A DNA stretch of 34,142 nt, from the NCBI RefSeq assembly GCF_025602895.1, contig NW_026516477.1, forward strand, positions 1-34,142. Reading direction: 5' to 3'. Source of the stretch: Polychytrium aggregatum (lineage: Eukaryota; Chytridiomycota; Chytridiomycetes; Polychytriales). The notes below the pieces were generated by a model that had not been told where the DNA came from, ran no database searches, and saw nothing but the letters and a program-made list of their open reading frames with translations. Below are positions 1,448 through 20,880 of the stretch, piece by piece. Made by a program: the position numbers and the translations under genes. Every line of letters begins with the position of its first letter. Within the stretch, counting starts at the first letter, position 1.

Positions 1448-1684
1448 CCAGTTCTTTTGCCGCAGGACAGCAACCAGCCTATTCAGAAAGTACTCGTTGA
1501 TCAGATCACCCCCGCCCAAGATGATACACCTGGGCGTGGTCAGAGGAAGTTGTTCTATGGGGTCTTCGAGGCTGCCAACGTAGACGTCGTCAGTGGTGAC
1601 TTGCTGCAAAAGCCATGGCCACATGCGGGCAAAGATGTCGTCGCCCAGGTTGCTTCGGTCGTAGTATCCCAGCACGATGATCAT
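1448..1684 (-). pseudogene. polysaccharide pyruvyl transferase-like N-terminus, truncated by element 1
   Basis: The minus-strand frame starts at ATG 1684 with MIIVLGYYDRSNLGDDIF and continues to CIILGGGDLINE. The GYYxxxNLGDD start and the later GGGDL motif are characteristic of the polysaccharide pyruvyl transferase (CsaB/WcaK-like) family, which adds pyruvate ketals to surface glycans. Such genes occur in bacteria and in some giant viruses, where glycan decoration of virions is common. Only about 79 codons remain: the frame runs straight into the LTR ending at 1447, so the C-terminal two thirds lies left of the insertion or is lost. An A-rich tract (minus GAAAAAAAATATC, near 1730) lies about 45 nt upstream of the start. 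The family call is moderately sure; the truncation is directly visible. Confidence 0.6.
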
Positions 1685-1783
1685 GAATGAGGAAAGGATG
1701 AAAATGACGCCACCGGCTGATCTCTATACTGATATTTTTTTTCAACCTGCTTGAGCTCCTGATGGATGGACATGTGAAGCAAA

Positions 1784-3713
1784 TCAAGCTCTCGCTGGTG
1801 TCAATTCACGAACTTTGATGATGATCTTTTTAATTGTCTCGGGATTGTGCCATTCTGATTTGTCTGCTCTGTCGCTGTAAACAACTCCACCAGAGCTCAA
1901 GGTCTCCATATCTTCATAGAGTTGGGTTTTCTTGATACCGATGAAGCGGGTAATATCGAGAGAACCGTCTCTCTTGCGCTGGGTAATCAGCTCATCGGCC
2001 TTCTCTTGGACCAAGGTATATGCGAGTAGGATGCCAGTCAACGCACACATCTGGAACATGAGGTTGGCATAGGTATCAATATGGTCCTTAAGATAGACAT
2101 CAGCATAGTAATCCAGATTATCCGTTTGACTTCTCTTAGTTTCATAGTCAACGGCCTTGCGAGTTGTAGCAGCCGCTTGGGCATCAGCATTTGCGTAGCT
2201 GTACATCAACTTTTGGCGGTCATCGGCGTTTGTAAAGGGTTCCATATCACCGGTTCTATGGATTTTACTGAGTGATTTATTGAATGCATTCATGACAGAG
2301 CTCACGATATTCGAGGAATTCATGGTGAATCCCCATGACATGAAAAACTCCTTAAGCGTGCGCTTAGCGCCTCCGGCAGCGTCTGCATTGATAATACCCA
2401 TACTGAGCAAACTTGGAATGACTTTATCGAAGGCAGTGCTCAGCGCCTTGACGACATCGTTGGCAAGTTGGAGGGTTTTGGCATTGTCGTTGTTGGCCCC
2501 TGAAATGCGGTTCTCCTTGGGGATCAGTCCGCCGGCAAACGCGTGGTATCCAATGACCTTTCTGTTGCCGACATCGGAAAGGAAATCCATCAGTGGTTGT
2601 TCGGCCTTCTTGAGCATAGTTTCCGAGACAAACTTGTAGATCTCCTGAACCTCGCTATCGTCCATGATGATCTGACCGGGCACCCATCCCTTTGGAGGAG
2701 GGGGAATACCGCGCTTCAGCCAACCCTCAGCAGTATCCCAGTGTGGGTATGTCATCTGGGCCCAGTCGTTCAGCTTGACCGAGTTCAATATCTTGCCTCG
2801 CAAATCGCCCGTAAAGGTTTGCTGGTCGGCAGTGAGCGAGTACCACGGATGGGCCATTGGAGTTCGATAGGCGGTGAATGGGTTCTTCTTCTGCACAACG
2901 ATATCAAAGTGCGTGTCGTAGGGAATGACCTTGTAATCCAAACCGGTCTTCTCGGAGAGGGCCTTCAGCTGGGCGTTGAACAACGGCTTCGGGCTCAATA
3001 CCAGTGCCGACAAAGTCGGACTTGCGGATGCGGACCGCAAAGACGTTGGGATCGGTGGCAGTCAAAGACGATGCTGTCGCGGTGAGCGGGTGTGCAGATG
3101 CAGATCCAAGCGGGTTCAAGGCACCGAGTGAGCCGAGCGACAGGTTCAGAGCATGGGTTGCATCGCTGATCGAGGAAATCGGGGTCACGGTCGACTTTGT
3201 CTCCTTCCACTCGAGCATGTTCTTGTTGAGCTTTTCGATGTTGCTATTCATCTTCTTGAGATATGTCTTCAGAGTATCCGCTTGCTTGCTTCCCTTCTTG
3301 GAGTCATCATCATCATCATCATCATCATCGTCGTCGGCATCAGCGTCATCGCTGGCACCTGCCCATTGATCGGGATAACCATAATCAGAGCGGATTGCCA
3401 TGTACGGGCGATTATCTTCGCCTCGTGCGATCTGGCCTTCGCACAAAGGATCTTCCTGTGGCTGGTGTTGCTTCTTCTTGCCAAACCAGCCGCTCAAGAA
3501 CCCGCCTCCAGACTTCTCCCTCCCAGACATGTCATATGCGCCATCAACCATCTCCTCATTGGGAACAGAGTCGACGGGCCGGATGATAATGATAGCGGCA
3601 CCGAATGACTTATGGGGGCGAGGTGTGCGATACTGGGCAACCTCTCGACTACTACTCGGTCGTCTGTGTGGGCGTTCGTCATCATACTGATACGAAGAGT
3701 ATTTATTGTCCAT
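1784..3713 (-). pseudogene. unknown viral protein of ~642 aa, split by a +1 frameshift
   Basis: Two overlapping minus frames make one protein. The upstream frame starts at ATG 3713 (MDNKYSSYQYDDERP) and is open to 2904. The downstream frame is open from about 3040 to the stop at 1784. ATG-to-stop length is 1930 nt, exactly one base more than 643 codons, so one extra base between about 3040 and 2990 explains it. Visible parts are a low-complexity N-terminus with an AAIIIIRPVD patch, an Asp run coded by an ATC/GTC microsatellite (about 3306-3335), a globular middle, and one hydrophobic segment near the C-terminus (FQMCALTGILLAYTLV, about 2015-2060) that could be a membrane anchor. I do not recognise the family. 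Its place beside SSB, SWIB and capsid genes suggests a virus gene. The shift could be decay, an assembly error or programmed. Confidence 0.55.
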
Positions 3714-3742
3714 CTGTGCACAGTACTGCTGATACAAACAGA

Positions 3743-3760
3743 GAATATTTTTTTCGCTCC
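3743..3760 (-). promoter_or_regulatory. A-tract promoter-like motif upstream of the 3713 gene
   Basis: On the minus strand the spacer reads GCGAAAAAAATATTCTC, about 30-45 nt before ATG 3713. A very similar GAAAAAAAATATC lies at the same distance before ATG 1684. In an otherwise GC-rich region these short A-tracts stand out and are candidate viral promoter elements. The tract also follows the SSB-like stop codon at 3764. Confidence 0.35.
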
Positions 3761-3763
3761 GCT

Positions 3764-4666
3764 CTACTCCTCAGTGGGCTGTTCCTCGGAGGAGGAAGTC
3801 TCTTGCTCCTGCTGCTCGGCATCGCCAGTCGTGCGCTTGCAAGGAAGCATAGAGGGGACGTCAGTGTTCACAAAGGCAGGTGCGTTCTCGGCGAAAAAGT
3901 CAATGTCGCCAATGTTGCTGTCGCCGCTGCTCAACACTCTGATCTGCCAGAGACGCAGAGTCAAGGACGAGTTGTTGTTCCTGCCAAGGAAGAGCTTGGT
4001 GATCTCGACGATGGGGATGACGCGGGCATTGGCACTGAGGACCTGCTCGACATTGCTGGGGTTGACGTCGATCAACTTATTGCCGGCCTCGGTGAACTTG
4101 ACGTCGTACTTGCCGGCACGGAAGGCGTTCGGGTTTTGAGGGTCGCGGTCGATGCTCACCTTGATGTTGGGAGGATAGGCGATTCCGGTCTGGCCGATCT
4201 TGGTGGTGACGGTACCCTTGTAGCGATCGGCGACCTGGTTGCGACTCAATTCACGGCGCTCGTTAGGGAACAAGGGAACGGCGAGGTTCTTGCTCTTCTG
4301 GACCTGGAGATCGATCATACGCTCGTCGAGTTCGACGAGTTTATGGTAGACCGCTTCGAGGATAGGATCGGTCTCATGGCCGTCGAGGCTGAGGCACATG
4401 GTGATCTTGCCATTGTCGCTGGGAGCGGTAGCGTTGGCGACAACCTTGTCGTTTTCTTTGTTGTCGGTCCAGAGCTTGGCTGCGAAGGGAAGGCTCATCT
4501 CGGGGAGCTTGAGCTTGATCGTGTCGCGGGAAGTGCCGTAGTTGACAAAAGCAAAGTTGCCATAGGAGTTAGAAAATGGTTTGGGATCAGTGATGGTGAT
4601 CTTACTGACGTCAAGGTCCTTGATGTCAACGATGCCGTGGTTCTGAGTGGCCTTGAAGGAAGACAT
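3764..4666 (-). CDS. candidate giant-virus ssDNA-binding protein (T7 gp2.5-like)
   Basis: 300 aa from ATG 4666. The N-terminal half has the pattern of the gp2.5-like SSB family of nucleocytoplasmic large DNA viruses: an opening 'D-ITDPKP..YGNFAFVNYG' strand, a 'LPEMSLPFAAKLW' segment, then an amphipathic helix (DPILEAVYHKLVELDERMID). The C-terminal half ends in a strand-rich VRVL-type segment (LTLRLWQIRVLS). The protein finishes in an acidic tail (about residues 284-300, rich in E, Q and S), as in SSBs that recruit polymerase through acidic C-termini. Expected role: coat single-stranded DNA during viral replication. The family assignment is from pattern memory and was not searched; a virion protein is the main alternative. 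The frame is intact, 134 bp from the SWIB gene upstream. Confidence 0.55.
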   Translation of the reverse strand: MSSFKATQNHGIVDIKDLDVSKITITDPKPFSNSYGNFAFVNYGTSRDTIKLKLPEMSLPFAAKLWTDNKENDKVVANATAPSDNGKITMCLSLDGHETDPILEAVYHKLVELDERMIDLQVQKSKNLAVPLFPNERRELSRNQVADRYKGTVTTKIGQTGIAYPPNIKVSIDRDPQNPNAFRAGKYDVKFTEAGNKLIDVNPSNVEQVLSANARVIPIVEITKLFLGRNNNSSLTLRLWQIRVLSSGDSNIGDIDFFAENAPAFVNTDVPSMLPCKRTTGDAEQQEQETSSSEEQPTEE

Positions 4667-4799
4667 GGCTAGGATAGTAGTAGGTGAAGAGAAGAAAACG
4701 CAGAAAAATGATGCGATAGAAGTGAGAGAGGGAAAGTCGATGGTGCGCTGCTTTTAAGCGTTGGTGGGAACGACTTTGCATCGAGCCTGGTCGTGATCA

Positions 4800-5519
4800 C
4801 TACTGCGCCACGATTTCGGCAGGGACGTTAACAGGGTCCGCGGCGGGGACGGGGTCTTCCGTTGTTGTCGCCGTGGCGGGCTCGTCCTGAGCTTCCAGCT
4901 TGGGCTTGCGTAGAAAGTGTGGGTTAAGATAAGTCTGCAGGTTAAAGTACGAGACCCCCAGGGAACCACTCTTGTCGATCGGGTGACGGATCGGGCCCAG
5001 CAGCTGAGCGAGCTTCTCGTCGGGGTGGATCACCCGGCGGTTCTCGGTGTCCTCGAGACTATGCTTTTTGACATAGTCGATAACAGACGAAGTGACGGTG
5101 GTGCGGGCAATCTCTTGGTCGGCGGGGATGCCCAAGAATTCGCACATGGCAGCGGAGACCTTTGTGGGCTTGGCGAAGCCGCTGGGCTTGCGCGGAGCTG
5201 TCAGCCTGGCAGCGGCGTCATCCGCGGTCGACGTGTCATCTCCGCCGGCTTGCGTCTTCCGCTTGCGGGACTGGGAGACCGCCGCCTTCTGGGCCAGGCG
5301 GTTGTAGCGGTCTTGGCTCTGCTGGGCGGTGCGCATCTCGCGCTGGTAGGTGGCCTTGGCCGACTTAATCAGCTCGATCGTCTTGCGCGCAGTGGACACG
5401 TCATCGCGGAGATTGCTGATCAGGCGTTCGGCGAGCGGCAGAAAGCTGGCGACCGGATCGGCAGCGACAGCAGGAGCAGCAGCAGGTGCGGGGGTGGGGG
5501 TGTCTGTGTTCTGGGACAT
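4800..5519 (-). CDS. SWIB/MDM2-domain protein
   Basis: 239 aa from ATG 5519. Residues 1-35 are Pro/Ala-rich and about 30-80 form a charged helical or coiled segment. A basic stretch (SRKRKTQ, about 84-90) could act as a nuclear signal. A SWIB domain spans about 113-203: SGFAKPTKVS..MCEFLG, then V..YVKKH.L.D..NRR.IHPDEKL..LLG, then L.YFNLQTYLNPHF. Residues 210-239 are a Pro/Ala/Asp-rich tail. SWIB domains occur in SWI/SNF BAF60 subunits and are repeatedly found in giant viruses, where a chromatin or transcription role is assumed. The upstream spacer contains TATAGTATATC on the minus strand just before the start. Reading frame intact; domain call confident, role inferred. Confidence 0.85.
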   Translation of the reverse strand: MSQNTDTPTPAPAAAPAVAADPVASFLPLAERLISNLRDDVSTARKTIELIKSAKATYQREMRTAQQSQDRYNRLAQKAAVSQSRKRKTQAGGDDTSTADDAAARLTAPRKPSGFAKPTKVSAAMCEFLGIPADQEIARTTVTSSVIDYVKKHSLEDTENRRVIHPDEKLAQLLGPIRHPIDKSGSLGVSYFNLQTYLNPHFLRKPKLEAQDEPATATTTEDPVPAADPVNVPAEIVAQ

Positions 5520-5553
5520 CTTGGCTCGATATACTATATGGGTGAGAAATTCT

Positions 5554-6976
5554 TTATTGCTCTTCAGCGCAGGGGAACAACATGAAAGGGGCGCGGATCA
5601 TGTCTACCATGATACGCAAGTATGCGATCTCAAATACATAAGTGCCAGTGCTATGAATCGTAATTTTGGTGTAGCTCTGTGGCGAGTCTGCGGGGGCTGT
5701 ATAACGGACCGGGTCGTCACAGCTGCCAATATCCTCCACTACCGCCTGCCAGTCCTTAAAGTTCAGCGCAGTAACACTTCCATCCTTGCCGACGGTGCTT
5801 ATGTGCGTTGTGTCCTTGTGACGACCGGTGTTGTAGATTTTTCGGGTAGACGAAAGGCTACCGGACTGATTGACTCGATTGACACCGTTGGTGAATGGGA
5901 TGTAGACGGACAGGGGCACTTCGTCGAACGGGACGTACAGACGGGCGTTGAAGGTGAAATCCATACCCATCGGTGTGAAGCCCGCTAATTCTTCGCAAAG
6001 GTAAGACTTGCTCTGGGGTGAGAGCTTTGTCTTCCTCTGAATGGACTCTTGTGTCTCGTCAGTATCGATTCCGAACAAACCAAGTACATTGTTGCGCTTG
6101 GTTGTGTAAATAGCCATGATACGCCTCTTTAGATCTTCGGTGATCTCGACTTCCGAGAGGACGATCACAAATCGAAGTAGATTGCGGACTCGATCCAGGA
6201 CATAGACTACCCAGGGGAGGTTGCATGGCAATGGCAAGCCATTGTACTAGGTCCGTCGTTTGTCGGTCGAGCGTCCCAGCCACCGTTGACATTGACAAAA
6301 CCTTGGCGCAAGCAATAATGGCTGGATGGTGACGTCGGACTTGGTCGGAGTATGGGTAGACGAGCTGGTAATCACCGCCCATGTTGTAGCCGATCCTATC
6401 CAGGTCAACGACATTATCGTCACCGTCGCGCAATTCTGGGATGGTGTACGAGAGCGCAAACAAGCGTGGGTTGCGCTTGGCTTCATGGAGGCACTCGAGC
6501 ACACACAGGAAGCTGACGTAGTTGAATAAGGCGGTGCTAACTCCAGCGAATTGAACTTCATCTACCAATGCTTCGTTCGCAATCCGTTCCGTGATGTACC
6601 GGGCTGCTATACTTGAGATCGACCAGGAGTGAATGATACCATCTTCATTGCTGAGTGTGGCAGCGGGCGTCTGATCGCTGATGATCGTGTGCCACAAGAG
6701 GGTACTCGGTGGCTTCGGTGGTGAAGTGAACATCGAGGCGAGCTTTAGGTACCCGGCTTTGCAGCGAGAAATTGTCGTTTTGCGACTCGATCCACGACCG
6801 ATGGATCCGGATTGCTTTTTCTTGACCGATCCTTGCTCCCTTCGGGCCGAACGGTTGCACTGAGCTTGTGGCGCCGGAAGCGCAATGGGTGTCTTGAGAC
6901 ACTCGATCGCCGGAGCGGGGGGCTGTTTTCGTTCTTCGAGTGGCGGTTCCTCAATCAGGATCGACGTCTGATTCAT
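5554..6976 (-). pseudogene. unknown viral protein of ~473 aa, split by a +1 frameshift
   Basis: The upstream frame begins at ATG 6976 (MNQTSILIEEPP) and makes good protein-like sequence to about 6230 (TTDLVQWLAIAM), then turns into Pro/Ser/Arg-rich out-of-frame sequence until 6059. The other minus frame takes over with LPWVVYVLDRVRNLL..VLSEVEITEDLKRRI and runs to the stop at 5554. Total length 1423 nt is one base more than 474 codons. The most economical site is the C-run of CCTCCCCTGGG (minus strand, about 6210-6220). The N-terminal ~90 residues are basic and low-complexity; the C-terminal half has beta-rich segments (MDFTFNARLYVPFDEVPLSVYIPF). No family recognised. The stop codon lies inside AATAAA (CAATAAAG). 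Confidence 0.55.
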
Positions 6977-6981
6977 CGGAT

Positions 6982-7140
6982 TCAAGGCCGTTGAACAAAT
7001 GATAAGTTGAAAAATCCGCTGCCGATATGGTCATAATAGTGCGCTGGCGAAGTTTGATCTGGGAGGATGATGGGGTCTGGGGAGACGACTCCGCTCTTGG
7101 GCGGAAGTTTCACGTCGGTGCTGCGCCACCCTTGCAACAT
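6982..7140 (-). CDS. small ORF, 52 aa, unknown
   Basis: ATG at 7140 (MLQGWRSTDVKLPPKSG) to TGA at 6982-6984. It sits between the 25-aa hydrophobic ORF (stop at 7146) and the next gene (ATG 6976), with only 5-6 nt on each side, which favours it being real or being part of the upstream frame. Pro-rich, with no signal peptide. It may be the soluble tail of a membrane-anchored small virion protein if the two frames were once one gene joined through an indel. No family recognised. Confidence 0.35.
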   Translation of the reverse strand: MLQGWRSTDVKLPPKSGVVSPDPIILPDQTSPAHYYDHIGSGFFNLSFVQRP

Positions 7141-7145
7141 CGGGA

Positions 7146-7223
7146 TCAGCTGAGGCCCACGAGAATCATATAGATCAGAACGAAGAGATAGACGAGCATG
7201 GTTGCGATGGTTGCGTACGACAT
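7146..7223 (-). CDS. small hydrophobic ORF, 25 aa, possible single-pass membrane peptide
   Basis: ATG at 7223 to TGA at 7146. The peptide MSYATIATMLVYLFVLIYMI is almost wholly a transmembrane segment. It is divergent from the penton-like gene (ATG 7296), with 72 bp between them. The stop is followed 5 nt later by the ATG of the 52-aa ORF in a different frame, so the two may be one small membrane protein broken by an indel. Short length makes this uncertain. Confidence 0.35.
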   Translation of the reverse strand: MSYATIATMLVYLFVLIYMILVGLS

Positions 7224-7295
7224 GCGTGCGGATGTGCTGCGTTTGCTGCGATCAGGCTCACATTTTTTCCCCAGCGCTTGCCATCGATCGTCCAA

Positions 7296-7850
7296 ATGAA
7301 TACCAAGATCCAGCCGAGCCGCCCCGTCCTGGGTATCCCGCCTCGAACGACATCCGAATGGATCGATACCCCGCCTCCAAAGCAGAGGGAACGCAATTAC
7401 TTTATTTGCGTCGAGTCCATCAAGCGTGCACCTGTCTATCCGTCTCCGGCAGAGTATCGCTTCCCGATCCTCCAGCCCTTGCGCGATGTCATTCGTGTCG
7501 AGCTCGTTGGAGGGACCTTGCCGTCGACACCGGCCACGACGCCGCCCTATGTCATCCTTGATGTTAATGAGCTGAACCACATGGATGTCGGCAGTGCAAA
7601 CGGTGCCTTCAATGTGCTCTTTACCGCCCCCGGAGCCGGCTCGTCCACCCACAGCATCGTGCAGACGCAAATGACCCAGACAACGACACTGATCTGCCAG
7701 CCGTCCATCCCCAGACTCAATTACCTGTCGATCGCCTTGCGTGCCCCCGACGGCACTCTCATGGACTATGGCACCGGCTTTGATCCGTCAAACCAGCACA
7801 TGCTCATGTTCAAGTTCACGGTCTTGGAGGCCTTTGGGCAGCTACCTTAA
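7296..7850 (+). CDS. capsid/penton-like beta-sandwich virion protein
   Basis: 184 aa, ATG at 7296. After a ~35-residue Pro/Thr-rich arm, the body reads as a chain of beta strands: YFICVESIKR, YPSPAEYRFPILQPL, RDVIRVELVGGTLP, YVILDVNEL, then LNYLSIALRAPDGTLMDYG and HMLMFKFTVLEAF. The order 'PS.Y...+ ...V..VELV.G.+P ... +L.I.+L' is the recurrent plan of small giant-virus structural proteins related to minor capsid or penton jelly rolls. It overlaps the convergent thioredoxin gene by 4 bp. A T-tract (CATTTTTTCC, about 7260-7270) lies ~30 nt upstream. Class call moderate; the exact capsid position cannot be told. Confidence 0.55.
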   Translation: MNTKIQPSRPVLGIPPRTTSEWIDTPPPKQRERNYFICVESIKRAPVYPSPAEYRFPILQPLRDVIRVELVGGTLPSTPATTPPYVILDVNELNHMDVGSANGAFNVLFTAPGAGSSTHSIVQTQMTQTTTLICQPSIPRLNYLSIALRAPDGTLMDYGTGFDPSNQHMLMFKFTVLEAFGQLP

Positions 7851-8257
7851 GGGAGAAGCGTGAGTGTCTGCTGAATGGCAGAAGCAGTGCGTGGGTTAGT
7901 GGGACTGTACGGATACAAGAGTCCCTTGGAATCGACCACAAAGAGCGTCGGGAACCCGTTGACACCCAGGATCTCTGAAATCTGCCGTTGCTTCACACCG
8001 TCAAAGTGAAAGACCGGGAAGGGTGCATTGCGAAGCTCCTTGGCAAGCCGGTGGCAGTGGCCGCATGTCGTCATATATGCGACCACCAGGGCCTTGCGAC
8101 CCAGAGCACGCCTGAATCGTACCGGAGTCCCTGGCTGCATTCCGAAATCAAGATCGACCCGCGGCTCGATCGGCTGTCCAAAGGTCGTGAATACGTCTTC
8201 ATTGTGCCGCTTGTGCTTCAGAGGCGGCAGTGGGCTGAATGGTGCAAACTCGATCAT
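7847..8257 (-). CDS. thioredoxin-fold oxidoreductase with CGHC active site
   Basis: 136 aa from ATG 8257. The first ~45 residues are a non-conserved arm. The fold begins at about residue 55 (KALVVAYMTTCGHCHRL), with the active-site pair C65/C68 in a PDI-like CGHC motif. The conserved cis-proline is P103 in NGFPTLFVVDSKG. There is no signal peptide, so it should act in the cytosol or viral factory. Giant viruses commonly encode thiol oxidoreductases and thioredoxins for forming virion disulfides; a role in capsid assembly is inferred from the neighbouring structural genes. Frame intact; shares 4 bp tail-to-tail with the penton-like gene. Confidence 0.85.
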   Translation of the reverse strand: MIEFAPFSPLPPLKHKRHNEDVFTTFGQPIEPRVDLDFGMQPGTPVRFRRALGRKALVVAYMTTCGHCHRLAKELRNAPFPVFHFDGVKQRQISEILGVNGFPTLFVVDSKGLLYPYSPTNPRTASAIQQTLTLLP

Positions 8258-8311
8258 TGCTGTCTTCTACATCAATAAAAATTTTTGTTGGACCCAGGTC
8301 ATGGGAACGGA
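8258..8311. promoter_or_regulatory. 54-bp divergent promoter region with an AT tract
   Basis: The only DNA between the divergent thioredoxin and fibre genes. It contains AATAAAAATTTTTG (about 8274-8287), a near-palindromic AT tract that could serve both directions. It is the same kind of A/T tract as in the other short intergenic gaps. Confidence 0.4.
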
Positions 8312-10039
8312 ATGAGCAACATCCGCGCAAACGTCATCGTCTCTGAGGCATCCACCCTCGAGATCTATAGCGACCGTGTGCTTTGCCAGGCCGTCTCGCT
8401 CTCAAGCACCGCAACCAATGCACTCTACACCATCGGCGGCATCCAGTGCGGGGCCAGCGTGTCCGTTGCCACCTCCGTTCAGACACCGGCTCTCTCGTCA
8501 CCTACCAGCGACTTGTCCTTGAACGGAACCACCCTCCAGGTCCTTTGCCCACAAACGAATCAACAGGGCCTCAGCGTCGAGGGGAACTTGGCATGTGGCT
8601 CTGAGCTCTCGGTTGGCTCGGTATTCTCGGTCTCGGCTGCAAACGGGCTGGCTTGCTCGGCTGATGCGGCTTTCACCGGAGCACTCTCGGCCGGTGACGT
8701 CTCAGCGTCGACCATAGACCTGTCCACTTCGCTATCTGCACCGAGCGTCACAGCCACTTCGTTGAGCGCTTCCTCGGCTACAGTGTCGTCCTTGAGCTGC
8801 ACCACCATCAGCGTCAGCAGCGGCATCACTATCGACACTCTCAGTCTCACCAATGCCAGCTTTGAAAACCTCACGACCACGGTGTCTACGAACCTGGTGG
8901 ACGTCTCGGTCGACACTCTTGCTGCTTCGTCGTCCGTATCGATCGGGTCCAGTGGCAGCTTCTCTTGTGCTGGCAGCACCAGCTTGGCAAGCGCATCGGT
9001 CTCGGGAACATTGACCGCTTCGGCCGTGAGCGTCTCTGGCACTCTCTCGGCGTCCACCGTCGATGCCGGGTCTGTTAGTTGCTCGGGTTCGGTCACGGCC
9101 ACATCGTCCGTCGGTGCACCGGTCTTGACCGCATCCACGTCCATCGGCGCTCCTTCGGCATCCATCACCTCGCTCTCTGCCTCGTCGGTCTCTGCGGCTG
9201 ACGTCACCGCCACCGACACCATCACGTGCCCGAGCCTCACTGTCAGCTCGGCGCTCTCGTCGACCGGGACGGCCGAGTTTGCGGGTCTCGGCGTGAGCAC
9301 CACTGCCACAATTGCGACCCTGTCGGCCACCAATCTCACTGCAACGGCTGCAACGATCACCAACGCCAGCGTCTCGTCCGTGCTGACGGCAAATACCTTG
9401 GACTACACCGCCCTCAGCTCGGCATCCACCCAGATCTCGGCCAGCACCTCAATCCTCTCGGCTGGATGCGATTCCCTTCGGCTCGTGTCGCTTGCCAGCC
9501 CATCCACCACGACAAGTCGCAACCTGGCCCTCTTCACCCTGGGGGCGTCCTATTCAGACAGCGACTTTGAGTGCTGCCAGCTGGCATCCGAGTCGACCGA
9601 CATGTACGTGCTGAGCTCGCGGGCGATGGGTGCCGGGCAGGTCCGCTCTGTCGGTGTGCGGGCAGGCACATCCGTGAGCCAGCCGCAGATCCTCGTCGAC
9701 CCCTCGCTCATCACTCTCTCCTGCGACGTCAACGTCATGGGCGAGCTCTCGACTTCGTCGGATATCCGTCTCAAGACCGACATTGTCGATTACAACGTCC
9801 AAATGTACAACACCGCCCACAAGCTGCTCGACCTCGACATGATCGAGTACGTCCACACCAGAGATCCCGATGGACCGCGCCGGGTGGGTCTTATTGCCCA
9901 GCAGGTGCAGGAGCACTTTCCGCAATTCGTGAAGCAGGACCGGGACGGCTTTCTCGCCGTGCAGTATGATCATATGGTGCTGCCGCTCATGGCGTTGCTC
10001 AAGCGGGTGTGCGCCCAGATCGGGCTCGAGAATATCTAG
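8312..10039 (+). CDS. fibre-like protein with C-terminal peptidase-S74 intramolecular chaperone
   Basis: 575 aa; ATG at 8312 (MSNIRANVIVSEA) is the first in-frame ATG. Residues ~15-410 are a Ser/Ala/Thr/Val-rich repetitive shaft with many SVSGTLSAS- and SATVSSL-like units, as expected for a beta-helical or triple-stranded fibre. About 410-475 is a less repetitive head. From ~482 the sequence is a classic intramolecular chaperone (S74) domain: SSDIRLKTDI, with the Ser and Lys typical of self-cleaving members, then YNTAHKLLDLDMIEYVHT, RRVGLIAQQVQEHFPQFV, and a C-terminal helix (MVLPLMALLKRVCAQIG). These domains trimerise phage tail spikes and also occur in giant-virus fibre proteins. Likely a virion surface or attachment fibre. 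20 bp before the kinase gene, same strand. Confidence 0.85.
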   Translation: MSNIRANVIVSEASTLEIYSDRVLCQAVSLSSTATNALYTIGGIQCGASVSVATSVQTPALSSPTSDLSLNGTTLQVLCPQTNQQGLSVEGNLACGSELSVGSVFSVSAANGLACSADAAFTGALSAGDVSASTIDLSTSLSAPSVTATSLSASSATVSSLSCTTISVSSGITIDTLSLTNASFENLTTTVSTNLVDVSVDTLAASSSVSIGSSGSFSCAGSTSLASASVSGTLTASAVSVSGTLSASTVDAGSVSCSGSVTATSSVGAPVLTASTSIGAPSASITSLSASSVSAADVTATDTITCPSLTVSSALSSTGTAEFAGLGVSTTATIATLSATNLTATAATITNASVSSVLTANTLDYTALSSASTQISASTSILSAGCDSLRLVSLASPSTTTSRNLALFTLGASYSDSDFECCQLASESTDMYVLSSRAMGAGQVRSVGVRAGTSVSQPQILVDPSLITLSCDVNVMGELSTSSDIRLKTDIVDYNVQMYNTAHKLLDLDMIEYVHTRDPDGPRRVGLIAQQVQEHFPQFVKQDRDGFLAVQYDHMVLPLMALLKRVCAQIGLENI

Positions 10040-10059
10040 GTCTCTGGGCGAGGTGAACC

Positions 10060-10980
10060 ATGGTCGTCGTTAAGGATTACACCGTCCATATCAACCAGAG
10101 GCTCGGCAAGGGGTCGTATGGGACCGTCTATCGCGGATCCAAGAACGGCAAGACGTATGCGCTCAAGAAGACCACGATGGAGAAACCCGGGGAGCTCTCT
10201 GCCACGCTCATCAGGGAGATTGCCATTCTCAAGCGCCTTGCGGGCCACCCTAACATTGTGCAGCTGGAGGAGTTCTTCTTTGCTGACAACCTCAAGTTCA
10301 CTTGGCTGGTCTTTGAGGAATACAAGACCACGCTGGACGCCCTCATCAAGAGCAAGGACGACGGGCTCTCCATGGACGAGACCTTCAAGTTCTCGTCCAA
10401 TCTTATCGACGGACTCGTTTATATGGAGGAACAAGGGTGTATTCACCGGGATCTGAAGCCGGGCAACATTCTCGTTCACGCGGACGGGCACTGTGTCATT
10501 GCCGACTTTGGACTCGCCCGCATGGATCGCACCCTCTACAACGTCAAGCAGGACACATCCGTCGTGACGCTCTGGTACCGCGCACCCGAGATTCTGCTGG
10601 GGTGTATCGATTATACTCTGCAGGCGGATATGTGGAGTCTGGGATGTATTGTCTTTGAAATGTTCTTTGGGCAGCCTCTCATATCCACCAAGACAGGCCA
10701 CGAACAACTCAGCGTCATCTTGACCATCATCGGCTCGGTCCCGCTCAAGACCTACAGTCTCAAGATCCCCACCAAGACCAGCGACCCGAACAGCGCAGCC
10801 TGGTATATGCACCTCGAGGGCAAACCCAATGGCATGTATCACCATCTGCGCAACGTCTTTGTCAAGGAGGAACAGCGGCACTGGGTCTGCAAGATGCTCG
10901 AGCTGGATCCAGCTCAGCGAGCAAGGCCAAGGGAATCAAAGGATGAATTGCTGGCCCTGATGCGCGCACAGCTCCTCTGA
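10060..10980 (+). CDS. CMGC-type (CDK-like) Ser/Thr protein kinase
   Basis: 306 aa, ATG at 10060 (ACCATGG context). All catalytic elements are present: glycine loop GKGSYG (16-21), the VAIK-type Lys at K36 (YALKK), an alpha-C helix (LIREIAILKRL) resembling the PSTAIRE region, HRDLKPGN (129-136), DFGLAR (149-154), and VVTLWYRAPE (to ~177), the CMGC activation-segment signature, followed by DMWSLGCI. It should phosphorylate Ser/Thr, and whether it needs a cyclin cannot be seen. The length equals a bare kinase domain. Its 3' end overlaps the convergent Nudix gene by 67 bp, which is typical of compact viral genomes. Viral or host-derived origin is not decided by sequence alone. Confidence 0.9.
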   Translation: MVVVKDYTVHINQRLGKGSYGTVYRGSKNGKTYALKKTTMEKPGELSATLIREIAILKRLAGHPNIVQLEEFFFADNLKFTWLVFEEYKTTLDALIKSKDDGLSMDETFKFSSNLIDGLVYMEEQGCIHRDLKPGNILVHADGHCVIADFGLARMDRTLYNVKQDTSVVTLWYRAPEILLGCIDYTLQADMWSLGCIVFEMFFGQPLISTKTGHEQLSVILTIIGSVPLKTYSLKIPTKTSDPNSAAWYMHLEGKPNGMYHHLRNVFVKEEQRHWVCKMLELDPAQRARPRESKDELLALMRAQLL

Positions 10981-13840: not shown

Positions 13841-13847
13841 AACCCCT

Positions 13848-14047
13848 TCAGCTCATGAAATCCAACCAGCTGATTCCATCGGCACTCTGCAGAAGAGTGG
13901 CCTCGATGCCCATAAAGTAGAGCTGGTACAGCCCGTTCGTGGCGGTATTGGTGATGTTGAAGAGCAGTGCGACTTCGTCAAAGGCCCCGCAATCCAAGGC
14001 ATCTTCTGCTCCGAAATCGAAGCAGTAGATTCCGCGTGTGCCGTCAA
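13848..14047 (-). pseudogene. major capsid protein, C-terminal piece (3' half of a split gene)
   Basis: Minus frame ending TGA at 13848-13850 and running upstream to the element 1 LTR at 14048. It encodes GTRGIYCFDFGAEDALDCGA, then LLFNITN and a final strand (YQLYFMGIEATLLQ). The 'G.Y.F.F...' strand is the conserved last part of the second jelly roll of NCLDV capsid proteins. Together with 19515-20411, after removal of the element and one GTCAA copy, the frame is continuous at 364 codons including stop. The two halves lie 5.5 kb apart with no promoter or splice arrangement suggesting expression of the full protein. Confidence 0.85.
14043..14047. repeat. target-site duplication GTCAA (left copy, element 1)
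   Basis: The five bases immediately before the LTR TGTAGGAG are GTCAA and are repeated exactly after the 3' LTR at 19515-19519. A 5-bp duplication is usual for Ty3/Gypsy integrases. Confidence 0.95.
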
Positions 14048-14356
14048 TGTAGGAGATGGTATCTCCGACGCTGTGCTGCGCGTACTGCGCGTACTGCGCG
14101 GCGCAGTGGGTCGTGACCTGTGCTGCGCTTTGCGTTTTCACGCACCGCAGGCAGGCCACCGCAGGGTATACCTGCGGGTTGCCCCCGTTCCCCCCGTTTG
14201 TCTGGAGTTCGGTTTTATCGTGAATAAACGTAAGTGCTTCCCGAGCTCACCCGTCCGCTAGAGTAGCCTAGCACCGCCCTGTTCTGCCCTGTCCTGTCTT
14301 GTCTTGTACCCCCTCCCTCCCCGTCTTGCCCCAACGTCCCAGTAGTGGACGTTACA
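14048..14356 (+). repeat. 5' LTR of element 1
   Basis: 309 bp, TGTAGGAG...GTTACA. It contains a short GCGCGTACT tandem duplication near 14078 and an AATAAA in GTGAATAAACG (near 14222). No clear TATA box is visible. Confidence 0.95.
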
Positions 14357-14374
14357 TGGTAGCATCGGAAATCC
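14357..14374 (+). other. primer binding site of element 1
   Basis: TGGTAGCATCGG directly follows the LTR. TGGTAGC is complementary to a tRNA 3' end GCTACCA, as in initiator-Met tRNAs of many eukaryotes. The exact tRNA cannot be proven without host tRNA sequences. Confidence 0.6.
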
Positions 14375-14478
14375 TCGTCTTGTTTTCGTCCTGTTTGTCC
14401 TCTTTCTAGATCCTCAAGCTGGATCCCGCCTCTCTTGCCGACCGACTCTCCTCTCTGTCCCTGGAGCCTGCCCCTGCC

Positions 14479-15300
14479 ATGAGCAACCCCCGCCCACTTC
14501 CGGAAGCCTTCCTCAAGACCTTCCGTGCCCCAGTGTTTACTGGGAAGAGCCGCTCCTCCTCGGTGGAGGACTGGCTGCAGCAACTCGAGGACTACCTCGA
14601 TGCTGCCCAAGTCGCCCCCACCCACCACATCGTCGCCGCCAAGCTCTGCTTAAAGGACCAGGCGTACCGTTGGTACCGCCGCCAAGGGTTCGACGAGCAG
14701 AGCGAAGGTGTGTTTGACGACTTCAAGGACCGCCTCCGTCGCCGCTTCGGCAGCCCCAATGCTGAACTCATTGCCCGTGACAAGCTATACTCTCTCGTGC
14801 AGCGTGGTTCTGTGACCCGCTACATCGAGGAGTTTGAAGACCTCTCCTCCCAGATTGAGGAGCTGGGCTCTGCTGATGCGATGTACCTCTTCCAGAAGGG
14901 CCTCAAGCCCAAGATCAGAGAGTACATCGCCAGCAACCCTGATGCCCGCAAGTCCCTGGACGTGATGATGGACGTTGCCGAGAACCTCGACAACGTCCAG
15001 TACCATGGCCGCCAGTTCTACCCGCAGCTGGCAGGCGGCCATCGGTCTCATCACGTCCCAGCCCGTCCGCCTCGCCCGGCCCCGCCCGCAAGACCCATGC
15101 CTGAGCCCATGGACGTTGACGTCAACGCCATGGAGGCTCGTGGCCCTCCCCGCTCCCGGTTCCAGCAAGCTGCCACTGTCTCCCCCAAGGACAGACAGAA
15201 GCAGGAGGACCTCCGCCATGGTTCCTGCTTCTTCTGTCACCGACCGGGACACCAGGCCAAGGAGTGCCCCATGAAGTCGGGAAACGGCCGACCCTACTAG
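14479..15300 (+). CDS. gag: element 1 gag (nucleocapsid-type polyprotein)
   Basis: 273 aa from ATG 14479. The central part (about 20-190: FRAPVFTGK, then [13 protein letters not shown], the AYRWYRR region and [10 protein letters not shown]) is a typical retrotransposon gag capsid domain. It is followed by a Pro-rich linker with PMPEPMDVD and a CCHC zinc knuckle ([14 protein letters not shown]) near residue 250. It should assemble the cytoplasmic particle and bind RNA. The last codons overlap pol, and a GGGAAAC slippery heptamer sits 12 nt before the TAG stop. Intact. Confidence 0.93.
15279..15285 (+). promoter_or_regulatory. gag-pol -1 ribosomal frameshift slippery site GGGAAAC
   Basis: In the gag frame the codons are TCG GGA AAC, so the heptamer is positioned as X XXY YYZ. 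Slipping back one base gives GGG AAA CGG, which is exactly the pol frame (GKRP). The gag stop is at 15298-15300. GGGAAAC is an established -1 signal in simian type D retroviruses (gag-pro). Confidence 0.85.
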
Positions 15301-18300
15301 GTGGCTCTGGAGCCCTAGTAGGAGACCAACGCCGTGGATTGCTCAATGCAGTCCACGCGTCTCCAGAGGAAGTTCACCTCGCCCCCTCCCCCGAAGGAGA
15401 AACAAACCAAGTGTTGTGCGTCGTGCGAGAGGTGCATGGTGGCGCAAGCCGCCTGCCTCTCCACGAACGTGAAGAGAAAACCAAAATTGAAAACCAAAAC
15501 AAAAAAGAAAATCAAGAACCCTTGAGGGACAGGACCGCCTGTGCCCTCACCCCTGTCAAGTCGTGTGTGTCGGATGCTTCCGACATGTGTCCGCAAGCCG
15601 TGGACGTCGTGTGCAATGGCGTGCTGACGCCGCAGGCCCCCGCAATGGCCGAACCCTATCCAAAATGTCCGAGTGGCCGTGATGAAGCCAACCAAGACCA
15701 AGTGTCGCCCGTTCCCCCAAGTCAAGTCATGGTGCAGGAGGCTGTGCAGGAGGACCATGAAGAGTCCCTGCTGTACCTCCCTGCCACCGTCCAAGGTCAC
15801 ACCGTCCGAATGATGGTGGACTCTGGAGCAAGCTGCAACTTTGTCAGCAGACGCTTGCTCCAGGAGCTCAACATACATGCAACCAAGAAGAAGTCGCCGA
15901 TGAGTGTGGCGCTTGCAGACGATCGTGTGCAGCAGTGCACACACCAAGTGGTCCTGCGAGTGGCCCTCCATCCCAAGTACCATCCTGTCCTGTTGTTCCA
16001 AGTGATCGACACCAAGTTCGATGCCATCCTCGGCATGAGCTGGCTTGCTCGTGCCGAGCCGACTCCAGTCGTCGACTGGAAAGGCCGCACTGTCCGTGTT
16101 GGCCCTGACATTGTCCTGCAGGGCATGGCCTCACCCAACATGCCACCTCTCCTCTCAGCCATGCAATTCAAGAGGCTGATCAAGAAGGACACGTCGTTCC
16201 TCTGTGTCGTGCGTGAGGTCGACGACACCGACCAAGCCGGTCCCGGTCCCCCGCCTGTGGTGACCAAGCTGCTCGACGAGTACAAGGACGTATTCCCCGA
16301 CCAGTTGCCACAATGCCTGCCACCCCAACGCACCGTCGATCATCGCATCGACATCGAACCAGGCTCGTCGCCTCCGTCAAGACCGACGTACCAACTGTCG
16401 CTGACGGAGATGGACGAACTCAAGCGCCAGTTGGATGACCTCCTCGCCCATGGGTTCATCCGCCCGAGCCAGTCACCGTATGGTGCACCAGTGCTCTTTG
16501 TCAAGAAGAAAGAAGGTGATCTCAGGATGTGCGTCGACTATCGCGCACTAAACAAACAGACCATCAAGAACACCTACCCGTTGCCCAGGATCGACGAGTT
16601 GATGGATCGTCTGAGTGGAGCAAAGGTCTTTAGCAAGATAGACCTCCGCTCAGGCTACCATCAGATCCGCATCCACGAGGATGATGTCCACAAGACCGCC
16701 TTCAGGACTCGCTACGGACTGTACGAGTTCCTAGTGCTGCCGTTCGGATTGACGAACGCACCTGCCACGTTCATGCAGCTGATGAACGATGTGTTCCGCC
16801 AAGAGCTCGACAACTCTGTCATCGTGTACCTGGATGATATCCTTGTGTACAGCAAGGATGAAGCGACCCATGAAGGTCATGTCGCCCGCGTGCTGGCCAA
16901 GCTACGCGAGCACAAGTTGTATGCCAAACTGTCCAAGTGTGAGTTCTTCAAGAATCAAGTCCCGTTCCTGGGACACGTTGTCTCAGGAAGAGGAATCGAA
17001 GTCGACCCCGCCAAGGTCAAGTCTGTGGTCGAGTGGCCGCCGCTCGCATGCGTCTCTGACGTGCAGTCGTTTCTCGGTCTCGTCAACTACTACCGCCGAT
17101 TCATCCCCGATCTGGCGCGCACTGCCGGTCCACTCACAGACCTACTCCGCAAAGAGTGCCCCTTCGTGTGGGACCACCCACAACGCCAAGCGTTCGAGAC
17201 CCTCAAGCACGCCTTGACGAACGCTCCTGTCCTCGCTGTGTTCGACCCGAACACGGATGTCTCCGTGCACACCGACGCCTCCGACTTTGCGGTGGGAGCT
17301 GTTTTGATGCAGGAGGGAAGGCCCGTTGCCTTCGAGTCGCGCAAACTGTCCCAACACGAGATCAACTATCCCGTGCACGAGAAGGAGCAGCTTGCGATCA
17401 TCTACGCGCTGCAGAAGTTCCGAGTGTACCTCCACGGTACCGCCAAGCCCTTCAAGATTGTGACGGACCACCAGTCACTGCGTTACCTCGACACCAAGAA
17501 GAACCTGAGCCGACGCCAAGCGCGATGGATGGAGTTCCTCGCCGAGTACAACTACGAGGTTGTATACCAGAAAGGCAAACTCAATGTGGTGCCTGACGCA
17601 CTGTCCCGACGCCCCGACTACCAATTGGCGTCACTGTACGAGTCGACTGTCAGTGTCGACAACACGATGCTGGATGTTGTCCGAGACAACATCGCCAACG
17701 ACAAACAGTTCGGAGAACTGTTCCGAAAGGTGTCTAAGCTCCCCAAGGACGACGAATCATCCGAGTACACAGTGCGTGATGGCCTGCTCCTCCTGAAGAA
17801 GGACAGCCGTGTCTGTGTGCCGGACATTCCGTCGTTGAAGACCAAGTTGCTCCAAGAGGTCCACGACTCGCCCCTCGCTGGACACTTTGGAGTCGAGAAG
17901 ACATACGACCGACTGGCCAAAGTCGCATACTGGCCTGGAATGAAGCGCACCGTCGAGAAGTACATCGAGTCCTGCCATACCTGCAAGATGGTCAAGTCAC
18001 GCACGACCCGAGAGCAAGGATTGCTGCAACCCCTGCCTGTTCCCGACCGCCCCTGGACCAGCATGTCCATGGATCTCATCACGCATCTACCGACGACCAA
18101 GTTGGACCACGATGCAATCGCTGTCTTTGTCGACAGGTTCAGCAAGATGGCACACTTTGTGCCGTGCCAGACGACATGCTCCGCGCCTGACCTTGCACTG
18201 CTGTTCTTCAAGCATGTGTTCAAGCACCACGGCCTCCCAAAGTCCATCGTCAGTGATCGAGACCCCCGATTCACCTCCTTGTTTTGGACAAGTCTGTTCG

Positions 18301-19196
18301 ACCATCTCGGCACCAAGCTGAACATGTCAACCTCGCACCACCAACAAACGGATGGACAGTCCGAGCGGACGATCCGCACCCTCGAGCAATACCTGAGGAC
18401 ATACGCCTCGACCAGCCAAGACGACTGGGACATACAGCTGAGTCATGCAGAGTTTGCATACAACACCGCCAAGTCGAGCACAACTGGCTTGAGCCCCTTT
18501 GAGGCGCTCTACGGATTCCAGCCTGATGTTCCCACCTCCTTGACACTGACCGAGTCCACGGCTGGATTGCCTCCCAAACCAAGTGCCTTTGTCAAAGATC
18601 ATCAAGTCCGACACAAGATGATCGCCGACGCGCTCACGGATGCGCAACAAGTGATGGCGAAGTACTACGACCGCCGACACCAGGATGTCTCCTTTGAAGT
18701 TGGAGACCTTGTCTACCTGGACGCCGACAACATCAAGGTCCCCGAAGCCCAGTCAAAGAAGTTGTTGCCCAAGTACCGAGGACCGTTCAAGATAGCGGCC
18801 CGACCCAGTCCCCTCAACTACCTGTTGGACTTGCCACCTGGAAGCAAGCTCCATCCTGTCTTCCATGTGTCCAAGCTGCGTCGCCACACGACCCGCAGTC
18901 CAGCACAGTTCCCCGACGCCGACGAAGGTGTCCCGGACGACGCACCACTGGAAGACGACCTCGGACAATACTATACTCAAGAATATGAAGTCGAAAGGAT
19001 CGTGAGGCACAAGAAAGTGGCTGATGGGTCACTTCGGTTTTATGTCAAGTGGGTTGGTTACCCACACTCGGGCAACACATGGCAAACACTGGAGGACTTG
19101 TCCCATGCACCCGAGGAGCTGAGTAAATACGGTAAACACCTCGAGGAGCCCCAAATAAAGAGCACACGCAGGGCTCCTCGCAGGAAGCCTTCTTAA
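15281..19196 (+). CDS. pol: element 1 pol (protease-RT-RNase H-integrase-chromodomain)
   Basis: Open frame of ~1300 aa in the -1 frame relative to gag. Protease: [10 protein letters not shown] with catalytic DSGA (near 15816). [36 protein letters not shown] and catalytic YLDD (16827). RNase [15 protein letters not shown] (near 17270). Integrase: an H2C2 finger ([17 protein letters not shown]), then the D,D35E core at [16 protein letters not shown] and [12 protein letters not shown]. The C-terminal [13 protein letters not shown] part leads to a chromodomain ([20 protein letters not shown]), stop at 19194-19196. All catalytic residues are present and the frame has no breaks. The chromodomain is expected to direct integration to methylated histone H3. 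Confidence 0.95.
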
Positions 19197-19205
19197 GTGT
19201 GGGAG

Positions 19206-19514
19206 TGTAGGAGATGGTATCTCCGACGCTGTGCTGCGCGTACTGCGCGTACTGCGCGGCGCAGTGGGTCGTGACCTGTGCTGCGCTTTGCGTTTTCACG
19301 CACCGCAGGCAGGCCACCGCAGGGTATACCTGCGGGTTGCCCCCGTTCCCCCCGTTTGTCTGGAGTTCGGTTTTATCGTGAATAAACGTAAGTGCTTCCC
19401 GAGCTCACCCGTCCGCTAGAGTAGCCTAGCACCGCCCTGTTCTGCCCTGTCCTGTCTTGTCTTGTACCCCCTCCCTCCCCGTCTTGCCCCAACGTCCCAG
19501 TAGTGGACGTTACA
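19206..19514 (+). repeat. 3' LTR of element 1
   Basis: 309 bp, no differences from the 5' LTR found by eye. A short purine-rich AAGTGTGGGAG precedes it and may act as polypurine tract. Followed by GTCAA (19515-19519). Confidence 0.95.
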
Positions 19515-20411
19515 GTCAAAGTCTGCATAGCCCGTCTTGATGCGGGGGAAGATCTCTGGCAGCTGGTAGAATCGGGGCTTGCCGTCCAGGGTCAGTGTGA
19601 CGCTGGTGAAGAGACCCGTTGCCTCTGGATTAAACTTCCAGAGCAGCTTGTGGATCACCGACCGGAACGGGAGTACCACCTTGAATGACCCCGGTGAGAC
19701 CGGTACGTCATAGTAGACCCAGGTGTTGAGCAGCTGAGTCTTTTGCACATCCGGGTCATTCACTGGTGCCGTCGGCCACATGCGATACTTGAAGAAGACG
19801 GCGGCATCCTGGAAGACTGCGGTTTGTGCGGGAATCGGTGGGTCTGTCGATGTGTGTGGAGTCGGTGCCGGTCCCAGCACTCCAGATGCGGCGGTTGCCC
19901 ATATCACCCGGAACTTGAGCTGCATCGCCTGTACATCCGCAAAGAGGAACGGTGCATGGGGTGCTCTGATGAGAAAGCTTTGGGTGGTGGCTTGCGGGAG
20001 ACTGAAATCACACAGTGGCTGGTAAAGCGTGAATCCGTCGGGAACTCGCCCGGCTGCAAGCTCATCCGCATAGTTCGTCGGCTCCAATGCCGAAACCGCT
20101 TCGAGCCACATGCCCGTCCACTGGTACAGGCGCATCGAGCCGACCCACATCTCGATCGAGTCGATTGCCCCGAACCCAGCTGCATTGGCAAAGCCACCGA
20201 CGTTAACTTCGATCGTGAAATACAGCCACGTCTCCTCGAGCTGATCACCCAGCCAGGGAACGACCGCGGTCGTTGTCTTGCCAAAGTCGGTCACTTCCTG
20301 GAACTCGACTCGTGAGATGTTAATGCCGCTCTTGGGCTGCCCCTGGAAGAGCGCTCGCTCTTGCGGGCCGTATGTCGTGAGCTGCGTGAGTGCGGTTGCA
20401 TTCGTCGACAT
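19515..20411 (-). pseudogene. NCLDV-type major capsid protein (double jelly roll), N-terminal piece of a split gene
   Basis: ATG at 20411 (MSTNATALTQLTTYGPQERA). The opening 'ALTQL.TYG.Q...F.G.P...' matches the start of giant-virus MCPs, where the hallmark is an L-AYG-QD-YLTG-P element. Further landmarks are FGAIDSIEMWVGSMRLYQWT (equivalent of the 'I..IE..IGG..I....GEW' helix/strand region), a short DFSLPQATTQSFL loop, FFKYRMWP, and KPRFYQLPEIFPRI, corresponding to the 'L.LNGHDRF' segment. The frame is then cut by element 1 after GYADFD and continues at 13848-14047. The restored length of 363 aa is shorter than the ~440-650 aa usual for the family, so it is a compact member with reduced loops. 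Without the insertion the frame is open. Confidence 0.85.
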
Positions 20412-20508
20412 TGTGGGTTCTTGGTGAGGGGTAGATAGAATATTCGGGCTGGGTCTCGTGCGTCTGATGGAGGCAAGAAATGTTCTTGGCCTAGAGAAGA
20501 TCACAGCC

Positions 20509-20880
20509 ATGCCCCCGCTCCACAACGTCGACATCACCAACGATAATGCCTTCCAGCTCATTGCTCAGTATATTGAGATTGCTCAGTCCAAGGGTGCTTA
20601 CAAGCTGAACGATGCATTCCAGCTCAAGAAGGCCCTCGATGCCTGTGTCAGCGCCAAGTACGAGCCATTCGGAGAGAACGACCGCAACCCACGAGAGACG
20701 GCCAAGCGTATCCTGCTTCAGGGCATCTTTGTCGGACAGAACAAGGGTGCCTTTACGATCTCGGACTCGGTGCTCCTCGCCGATCTCATCCAGTTTACCG
20801 AGCTGGACGGTGGAGAGCTATTCGGTTCAACCAGCCATGGTCACGGAAAGCAAGTCTCGAAGCACAAGGAGAGGGAGTAG
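20509..20880 (+). CDS. small viral protein with two internal 'AQSKGAY..' type repeats
   Basis: 123 aa from ATG 20509; an in-frame ATG at 20467 would add 14 residues, but the later ATG has the better -3 purine context. Two related units are visible: AFQLIAQYIEIAQSKGAYKL with DAFQLKKALDA, and RILLQGIFVGQNKGAFTI with SVLLADLIQF. Each is a helix, 'Q.KGA+.+', then a helix. Such paired helical units occur in short uncharacterised proteins of giant viruses; the function is unknown. A His/Lys-rich tail (TSHGHGKQVSKHKERE) ends the protein. It is divergent from the MCP gene across ~97 bp. Confidence 0.6.
   Translation: MPPLHNVDITNDNAFQLIAQYIEIAQSKGAYKLNDAFQLKKALDACVSAKYEPFGENDRNPRETAKRILLQGIFVGQNKGAFTISDSVLLADLIQFTELDGGELFGSTSHGHGKQVSKHKERE

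Follow-up and report, generated by a model that had tools for sequence, protein, structure and literature searches.

A chromovirus-interrupted segment of a probable giant endogenous viral element in the chytrid fungus Polychytrium aggregatum

Nature of the element

Polychytrium aggregatum is a chytrid fungus of the order Polychytriales, and its assembly comprises 64.7 Mb across 418 contigs. One of these, contig C196, was analyzed over its entire length of 34,142 b (hereafter, the window) and contains viral genes and Ty3 chromoviruses, the latter making up approximately 43% of it. The window very probably belongs to a giant endogenous viral element, that is, DNA of a Nucleocytoviricota virus that infected P. 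aggregatum and now resides in the nuclear genome as several near-identical, rearranged copies. Within that virus it is a segment of structural and accessory genes, among them the gene for a second major capsid protein (MCP), designated MCP2. An initial annotation, made from the sequence, had proposed a giant-virus block in a probable fungal genome. The host is indeed a fungus, since database proteins identical to the PolB (a partial entry) and to the canonical MCP of this genome carry the name P. aggregatum. The giant-virus reading is supported by hallmark genes of the nucleocytoplasmic large DNA viruses (NCLDVs) in the same genome, several of them on a contig collinear with the window.

That contig, C5 (170,351 b), is collinear with window positions 1448-7965 and reaches position 7965 at its own end. 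Read in pieces of 10 kb, it encodes PolB, a canonical MCP, PCNA, a C962R-type archaeo-eukaryotic primase, the small chain of ribonucleotide reductase (RNR), a DUF5901 protein, RNase III and a papain-like protease, each matched above the cut-off, with a DUF5906 helicase just below it; 16 of its 144 listed open reading frames (ORFs) were scanned against Pfam. Erv1-like and TFIIB-like proteins were recognized on C5 by motif reading only, neither having a Pfam match. On contig C96, the gene for VLTF3 (E 4e-46) lies beside that for an A32-type ATPase (E 3.6e-6). Genome-wide, the canonical MCP was found above the cut-off at three places, VLTF3 at one, and an uninterrupted viral PolB frame at two. 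The hallmark genes are spread over several contigs, and the window itself holds MCP2 alone among them.

These genes bear on the idea that the window derives from a smaller element with a double-jelly-roll capsid protein, such as a polinton-like virus, a virophage or a mirusvirus. The window's own MCP, being without a Pfam match above the cut-off, would fit such an element, but the presence in the genome of an NCLDV MCP, VLTF3, an A32-type ATPase, PCNA, RNR, primase and RNase III, several of them on the collinear contig, argues against it, as do the alignment of most of the MCP2 sequence to NCLDV MCPs and a structural model that ranks a PBCV-1 capsid protein first (described below). A smaller element is accordingly regarded as exceedingly improbable.

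The VLTF3 contig also carries a tRNA gene (C96:57899-57971), whose score equals those of copies on C112 and C13; it may belong to a host flank or be a viral tRNA gene. On C5, an 867-aa ORF at 144524-147124, beside the primase-helicase, contains a Cas12f1-like TNB domain (PF07282, E 1.2e-9) and by our reading would be Fanzor-like.

Chromovirus insertions and evidence for integration

Four Ty3 chromoviruses are present in the window, two complete and two cut by the contig ends. One complete element (14048-19514, forward strand) lies inside the MCP2 gene and is a Ty3/gypsy chromovirus with all of the defining features. Its gag ORF (14479-15300) and its pol ORF (15264-19196), which includes the chromodomain, together provide gag, protease, reverse transcriptase, RNase H, integrase and chromodomain, the integrase being matched below the cut-off in its core (rve) and above it in its zinc-binding part. 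The long terminal repeats (LTRs; 14048-14356 and 19206-19514) agree at all 309 b, and the element is bordered on both sides by the 5-bp target duplication GTCAA. Contig C287 retains the uninterrupted site with one GTCAA, and C350 is likewise without the insertion. The second complete element (22603-28679, reverse strand) has LTRs identical over 419 b and a target duplication, AGCAC. Because the LTRs are identical, the insertions are taken to be recent.

At the left end of the window, the 3' end of a chromovirus cut by the contig start (1-1447, forward strand; chromodomain ORF 256-1128, PF00385 Chromo E 4.6e-14; LTR 1138-1447, 99% identical to the LTR at 14048-14356) sits in a pyruvyl-transferase-like gene, and C5 is collinear with the window only from position 1448 on. 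At the right end, another is cut by the contig end (32428-34142, reverse strand; LTR at approximately 32428-33219; PF00385 E 2e-13), and its LTR has several copies on C5. The proposal that complete chromoviruses lie inside viral genes therefore holds for the one in MCP2, while the other complete element lies between ORFs and the cut element at the left end is within a gene. Three further insert sites were found in other copies of the viral DNA, on C58 with C277, on C174, and on C63 with C317; these inserts are known by their size (approximately 6.1-6.4 kb) and their ends (overlaps of 5-6 b), and are retroelement-sized.

Viral DNA was also found on larger contigs. Contig C112 (1,464,379 b), which carries at least three tRNA genes (at three places among the matches listed), has at its end a retroelement and, beyond it, 740 b of a viral gene with 98.8% identity, and C374 (291,279 b) holds a zinc ribbon of the TFIIS type, together with viral fragments that are repeated between approximately 34.6 and 60.2 kb. 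Megabase contigs, C1, C13 and C24 among them, contain matches to the tail of the MCP2 ORF that the LTR encodes. Taken together, the retroelement insertions with target duplications, the end of C112 and the fragments on C374 assign the viral DNA to the nuclear genome, in agreement with the initial proposal that it belongs to a eukaryotic chromosome and is not free virus.

The same evidence was weighed against a persistent or latent giant virus that is free (episomal) in the culture and into whose genome retroelements have jumped. The contigs with a canonical MCP measure only 15.6-170 kb, far below the megabase contigs, and all three canonical MCP genes are open frames of 415 aa, two of them (on C63 and C326) identical and the third with four substitutions, which favors such a virus. 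However, the large retroelement share of the window, the differences in insertions between copies and the 1.46-Mb contig C112, which has tRNA genes and terminates in viral sequence, speak against it, and an episomal virus is judged improbable. Besides the contig sizes, several observations weigh against integration. No host gene was recognized on the window contig, where viral-block and retroelement sequence alone was recognized, nor among the 144 listed ORFs of C5 (16 of them Pfam-scanned). On C374, the host side is represented by a non-viral-looking ORF with a sub-threshold match only, and the evidence for integration comes from assembled contigs.

If the DNA is endogenous, as we consider very probable, a Nucleocytoviricota virus would have infected a chytrid cell and its DNA would have integrated into the nucleus, where copies may have multiplied by repeated integration, duplication or both. 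The viral copies may then have been silenced and afterwards received retroelement insertions, under which most of them would now be decaying.

A divergent second capsid gene

The MCP2 gene lies on the reverse strand in two parts, on either side of the chromovirus at 14048-19514. The 5' (N-terminal) part occupies 19515-20411, with a likely start at 20411 in an ORF that itself opens at 20561, and the 3' (C-terminal) part, at 13848-14047, is collinear with the end of an uninterrupted 413-aa ORF on C287; the ORF at 19416-20561 and the continuation at 13848-14047 correspond to that one ORF. The MCP2 protein has approximately 363 aa and is 15-22% identical to canonical MCPs.

Sequence comparison supports the view that this is a second, very divergent NCLDV-type MCP, as the initial annotation had read it, despite the lack of a Pfam match above the cut-off. 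Aligned by hhalign to 27 canonical MCPs, MCP2 gave 325 columns, a score of 42.25 and a probability of 66.6. In control runs, its scores against canonical MCPs were 42-44, the best of 200 shuffles reached 24.9, and the best of 18 other window ORFs reached 19.5. Among 65 C5 ORFs of 250-600 aa, a fragment of the canonical MCP alone outscored MCP2 (918.5), the next ORF scoring 27.2. A single BLASTP comparison with the canonical MCP of the same genome gave 30 bits (E 1e-4). Foldseek with the alignment-based AlphaFold2 model found PBCV-1 Vp54 first (E 1.2e-15, TM approximately 0.6), and each of the 50 rows listed was a chain from an NCLDV or PRD1-type phage capsid entry.

Several results weigh against this assignment. 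MCP2 scored 12.2 bits against PF16903, where the cut-off is 24; genome scans with PF04451 and PF16903, the latter at E up to 10, missed it; and the best match among PDB sequences, to a PBCV-1 MCP variant, had an E of 0.14. A single-sequence model was poor (pLDDT 37.8) and was not used, while the AlphaFold2 model (pLDDT 65.4, pTM 0.69) was made with 75 canonical MCPs in the alignment, which can impose their fold. Because the model is poor without that alignment, the fold is supportive of an MCP but not independent evidence.

Searches for relatives of MCP2 were also negative: a word-based search of 5.8 billion proteins returned the window's own protein alone at E 0.01, and exact peptide patterns had no match in IMG/VR. 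A genome scan with PF16903 for further MCP paralogues found the three canonical copies alone. The nearest structural likeness is to the PBCV-1 capsid, in which Vp54 is accompanied by the minor variants MCPv1-v5 (PDB 5tiq, 6ncl and 8h2i; all five variants are present in 8h2i). It is the predicted fold of the MCP2 model that resembles these proteins, whereas identity is 13-15% in the PBCV-1 rows listed. By analogy with what the PBCV-1 variants may do, MCP2 may have formed a minor capsomer type. A more far-reaching and quite tentative proposal is that MCP2 represents an orphan second major-capsid lineage with its own capsomer type, which would give the fungal giant viruses an undescribed capsid architecture, and that silenced viral copies are a preferred landing ground for chromodomain retrotransposons.

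Relatives of the canonical capsid protein and PolB

Quick trees with SH-aLRT support only were made from 88 canonical MCP rows, drawn from the 120 listed among at least 8,000 matches, and from 48 of 121 available PolB rows; the rows of both trees include no named Nucleocytoviricota (including Imitervirales) reference virus. A single starred clade of 38 rows in the MCP tree takes in all eight named zoosporic-fungus rows (this Polychytrium, two each from Quaeritorhiza, Allomyces and Blyttiomyces, and one from Catenaria), the other 30 being unnamed; the node uniting the canonical MCP with Quaeritorhiza has a value of 94 and no star. In the PolB tree, all five zoosporic rows (this one, a partial database twin identical to it over 661 columns, Quaeritorhiza, and two from Allomyces) fall in a starred 12-row clade with seven unnamed rows, and the nearest relative is Quaeritorhiza (starred). 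By sequence, then, both proteins group with those of other zoosporic fungi. A point against this picture is that the zoosporic rows need three label changes in both trees and hence form no clade of their own.

In IMG/VR, a single-sequence PolB scan matched no pattern; scans with the canonical MCP and the Nudix protein of the window matched one and three stretches, respectively, none of which was a relative by tblastn; and a scan with a PolB profile picked up 12 loci, whose identity was 20-27%.

Copies, divergence and decay

The copy number is at least three for MCP2, at least three for the canonical MCP and at least two for PolB, and the 50-58.5 kb stretch of C5 is present, wholly or in large part, at a minimum of five places, one of which has approximately half of it. 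Comparison of window positions 1448-7614 with C5, over 6,177 columns, showed 55 substitutions, along with 12 runs in which the length changes; 47 of the substitutions are in the 6500 and 7000 bins, and eight are outside that patch of approximately 1 kb. The window and C287 differ by two substitutions over 12,507-14,047, whereas the final two bins past 21,600 contain 75.

As a variant of the integration reading that is not exclusive of it, there may have been one or a few integrations, with the copies representing the same loci as alternative haplotypes or as duplicates made in assembly. The insertion sites common to C63 and C317 and to C58 and C277, the identical canonical MCPs of C63 and C326, and the eight substitutions between the window and C5 outside the divergent patch are consistent with this, and the shared sites suggest either duplication after insertion or haplotypes. 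On the other hand, the number of places that hold the C5 stretch, together with private insertions, a private deletion and abrupt patches of strong divergence, speaks against haplotypes or duplicates of the same loci, which we consider a serious possibility though not the favored one. Our preference remains for several copies in the nuclear genome.

Abrupt patches of strong divergence, at window positions 21600-22064 and 6500-7500, stand among otherwise near-identical copies; they suggest either gene conversion or exchange by recombination among related strains. In the comparison of the 21159 ORF with C287, in which divergence starts abruptly after approximately 21.6 kb, dN/dS was 0.40 over 300 codons; because of this value, the patch is taken to have diverged as a working gene. 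Values of 0.62 (C350) and 0.76 (6239-6985) were not relied on, as these comparisons cross frame changes. The patchy divergence between copies suggests that related virus strains or older copies contributed.

Structural differences between copies were noted as well. C350 is without the 622-aa gene of the window, and a 9-b overlap of the flanks there resembles the outcome of deletion between short repeats. At C374:36675-60206 there are four occurrences of a 1.65-kb viral fragment, of which three are spaced at a period of approximately 5.18 kb. Several of the changes that distinguish the copies consist of one base gained or lost, and a non-viral-looking ORF pair on C374 appears, in our reading, to be split similarly. 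Because single-base changes do not allow sequencing error to be separated from decay, no count of broken genes is given.

Other genes of the window

The initial annotation had placed the viral block at 1448-20880. Its viral content was borne out, but its extent proved too small, because a copy of the ORF at 21159 adjoins MCP2 on C287 and because 28,690-32,427 is copied at 99% on C265 (the first 521 b also at 88% on C287 and C350); the block thus reaches approximately 32.4 kb. Between 1.4 and 20.9 kb the genes are, as had been described, closely packed single open frames, which overlap or are spaced by 7 to 292 b. Five of the eight genes named earlier were confirmed: those for the SWIB protein, the S74 fibre, the kinase, the Nudix hydrolase and the NCLDV-type MCP.

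On the left, the block begins with the 5' part of the polysaccharide-pyruvyl-transferase-like gene (1448-1684, reverse strand), interrupted by the chromovirus at 1447/1448. Its copy on C5 is a 373-aa ORF matching PF04230 (E 1.8e-8) and CsaB (E 2.9e-10, far below the cut-off for that family). Two overlapping ORFs follow on the reverse strand (1784-3737), of 418 aa (1784-3040) and 277 aa (2904-3737), which form one 650-aa ORF in the copy on C189 and have no family match above the cut-off. A 300-aa ORF (3764-4666, reverse strand), with copies on C5 and C189, had been a candidate single-stranded DNA-binding protein; this label was dropped, since Pfam gave no match up to E 1. The SWIB-domain gene (4800-5519, reverse strand) matches PF02201 above the cut-off (E 6.7e-14), and two ORFs of 227 and 308 aa (5554-6985, reverse strand) correspond to one 392-aa ORF on C5.

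The 190-aa DUF5901-like protein (7278-7850, forward strand) is possibly of a minor capsid or penton type; the earlier penton-like label was not borne out, the match to PF19254 being sub-threshold (E 2.1e-4; 20.8 bits, with the cut-off at 26.4). The thioredoxin-like protein (7847-8257, reverse strand) does have the expected match, to PF13098 (E 1.9e-5), at 25.4 bits just under the cut-off of 27. It is followed by a fibre-like protein with a C-terminal S74 chaperone domain (8285-10039, forward strand; PF13884 E 3.8e-9) and a Ser/Thr protein kinase (10060-10980, forward strand; PF00069 E 7.4e-52). The kinase has counterparts in five kinase-like ORFs within C5:12616-99715, and Sel1-, WD40- and F-box-like ORFs were judged by eye to be present on C5 as well; with the kinases, these make up an expanded accessory repertoire. 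For the zinc-knuckle Nudix protein of the initial annotation (10914-11891, reverse strand), the Nudix domain was upheld (PF00293 E 7.1e-10), while the CCHC zinc knuckle is weak (zf-CCHC E 0.01) and below the cut-off. A 622-aa protein (11972-13840, forward strand) has weak paralogues among the C5 ORFs.

Beyond MCP2, a 140-aa ORF adjoining it (20458-20880, forward strand) recurs on C287 and has no Pfam match, and a 472-aa ORF (21159-22577, forward strand) evolves as protein-coding between copies. Within the stretch copied on C265 at 99% are a 261-aa ORF (28750-29535, forward strand) and two ORFs at 30463-32249 (reverse strand), of 363 aa and of 278 aa, the latter with a weak, sub-threshold LRR/FNIP resemblance. 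Between these viral-block ORFs, self-comparison revealed a tandem repeat (29546-30456) with a period of 77 b and approximately 12 copies. Finally, upstream A-tracts are enriched, AAAAAAAT being present in 9 of 77 upstream stretches where 0.61 were expected; this motif was rejected as a promoter, as the enrichment is too weak for a call.

Comparison with known systems

The study of giant DNA viruses of fungi is recent, and the evidence considered here comes from genomes, not from cultures. No paper on viruses of P. aggregatum appeared among the titles listed in a search that left out bioRxiv preprints and most subscription journals and in which two broad queries were weak. Judging from the reports on Euglena, Rhizophagus and zoosporic fungi, the present finding belongs to a known kind of element or is already contained in the preprint of Myers et al. 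(10.1101/2024.01.04.574182), which, as cited in a review (PMC12993054), announces giant viruses of zoosporic fungi. What P. aggregatum brings together in one host is several copies with open hallmark genes, a second, orphan capsid protein and recent insertions with identical LTRs; with such copies and insertions, copy number, silencing and the order of events become directly testable in a chytrid species.

The same review places the giant viruses of zoosporic fungi in Imitervirales as 'Mycodnaviridae', and the likeness is to a zoosporic-fungus giant virus with genomic evidence for integration (PMC12993054). Here, MCP and PolB fall in clades with Allomyces and Quaeritorhiza, and MCP also with Catenaria and Blyttiomyces. 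NCLDV core genes are mentioned for Allomyces macrogynus, Rhizophagus irregularis and Gonapodya prolifera in another report (PMC9894930).

The giant endogenous viral elements of Euglena gracilis are described as duplicated and invaded by transposable elements (PMC12455990), and they resemble the present case in occurring as several highly similar copies in one genome. E. gracilis, however, is a protist alga, and in P. aggregatum chromoviruses with identical LTRs and target duplications break a capsid gene. In the fungus Rhizophagus irregularis, a continuous 1.5-Mb endogenous viral region related to Asfarviridae likewise represents endogenous Nucleocytoviricota; according to the report, whose outline has a section on the lack of MCP homologues, signals of transposable elements are scarcer in the region than elsewhere in the genome (PMC10640383). 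Unlike that region as described there, the P. aggregatum DNA has MCPs and abundant retroelements.

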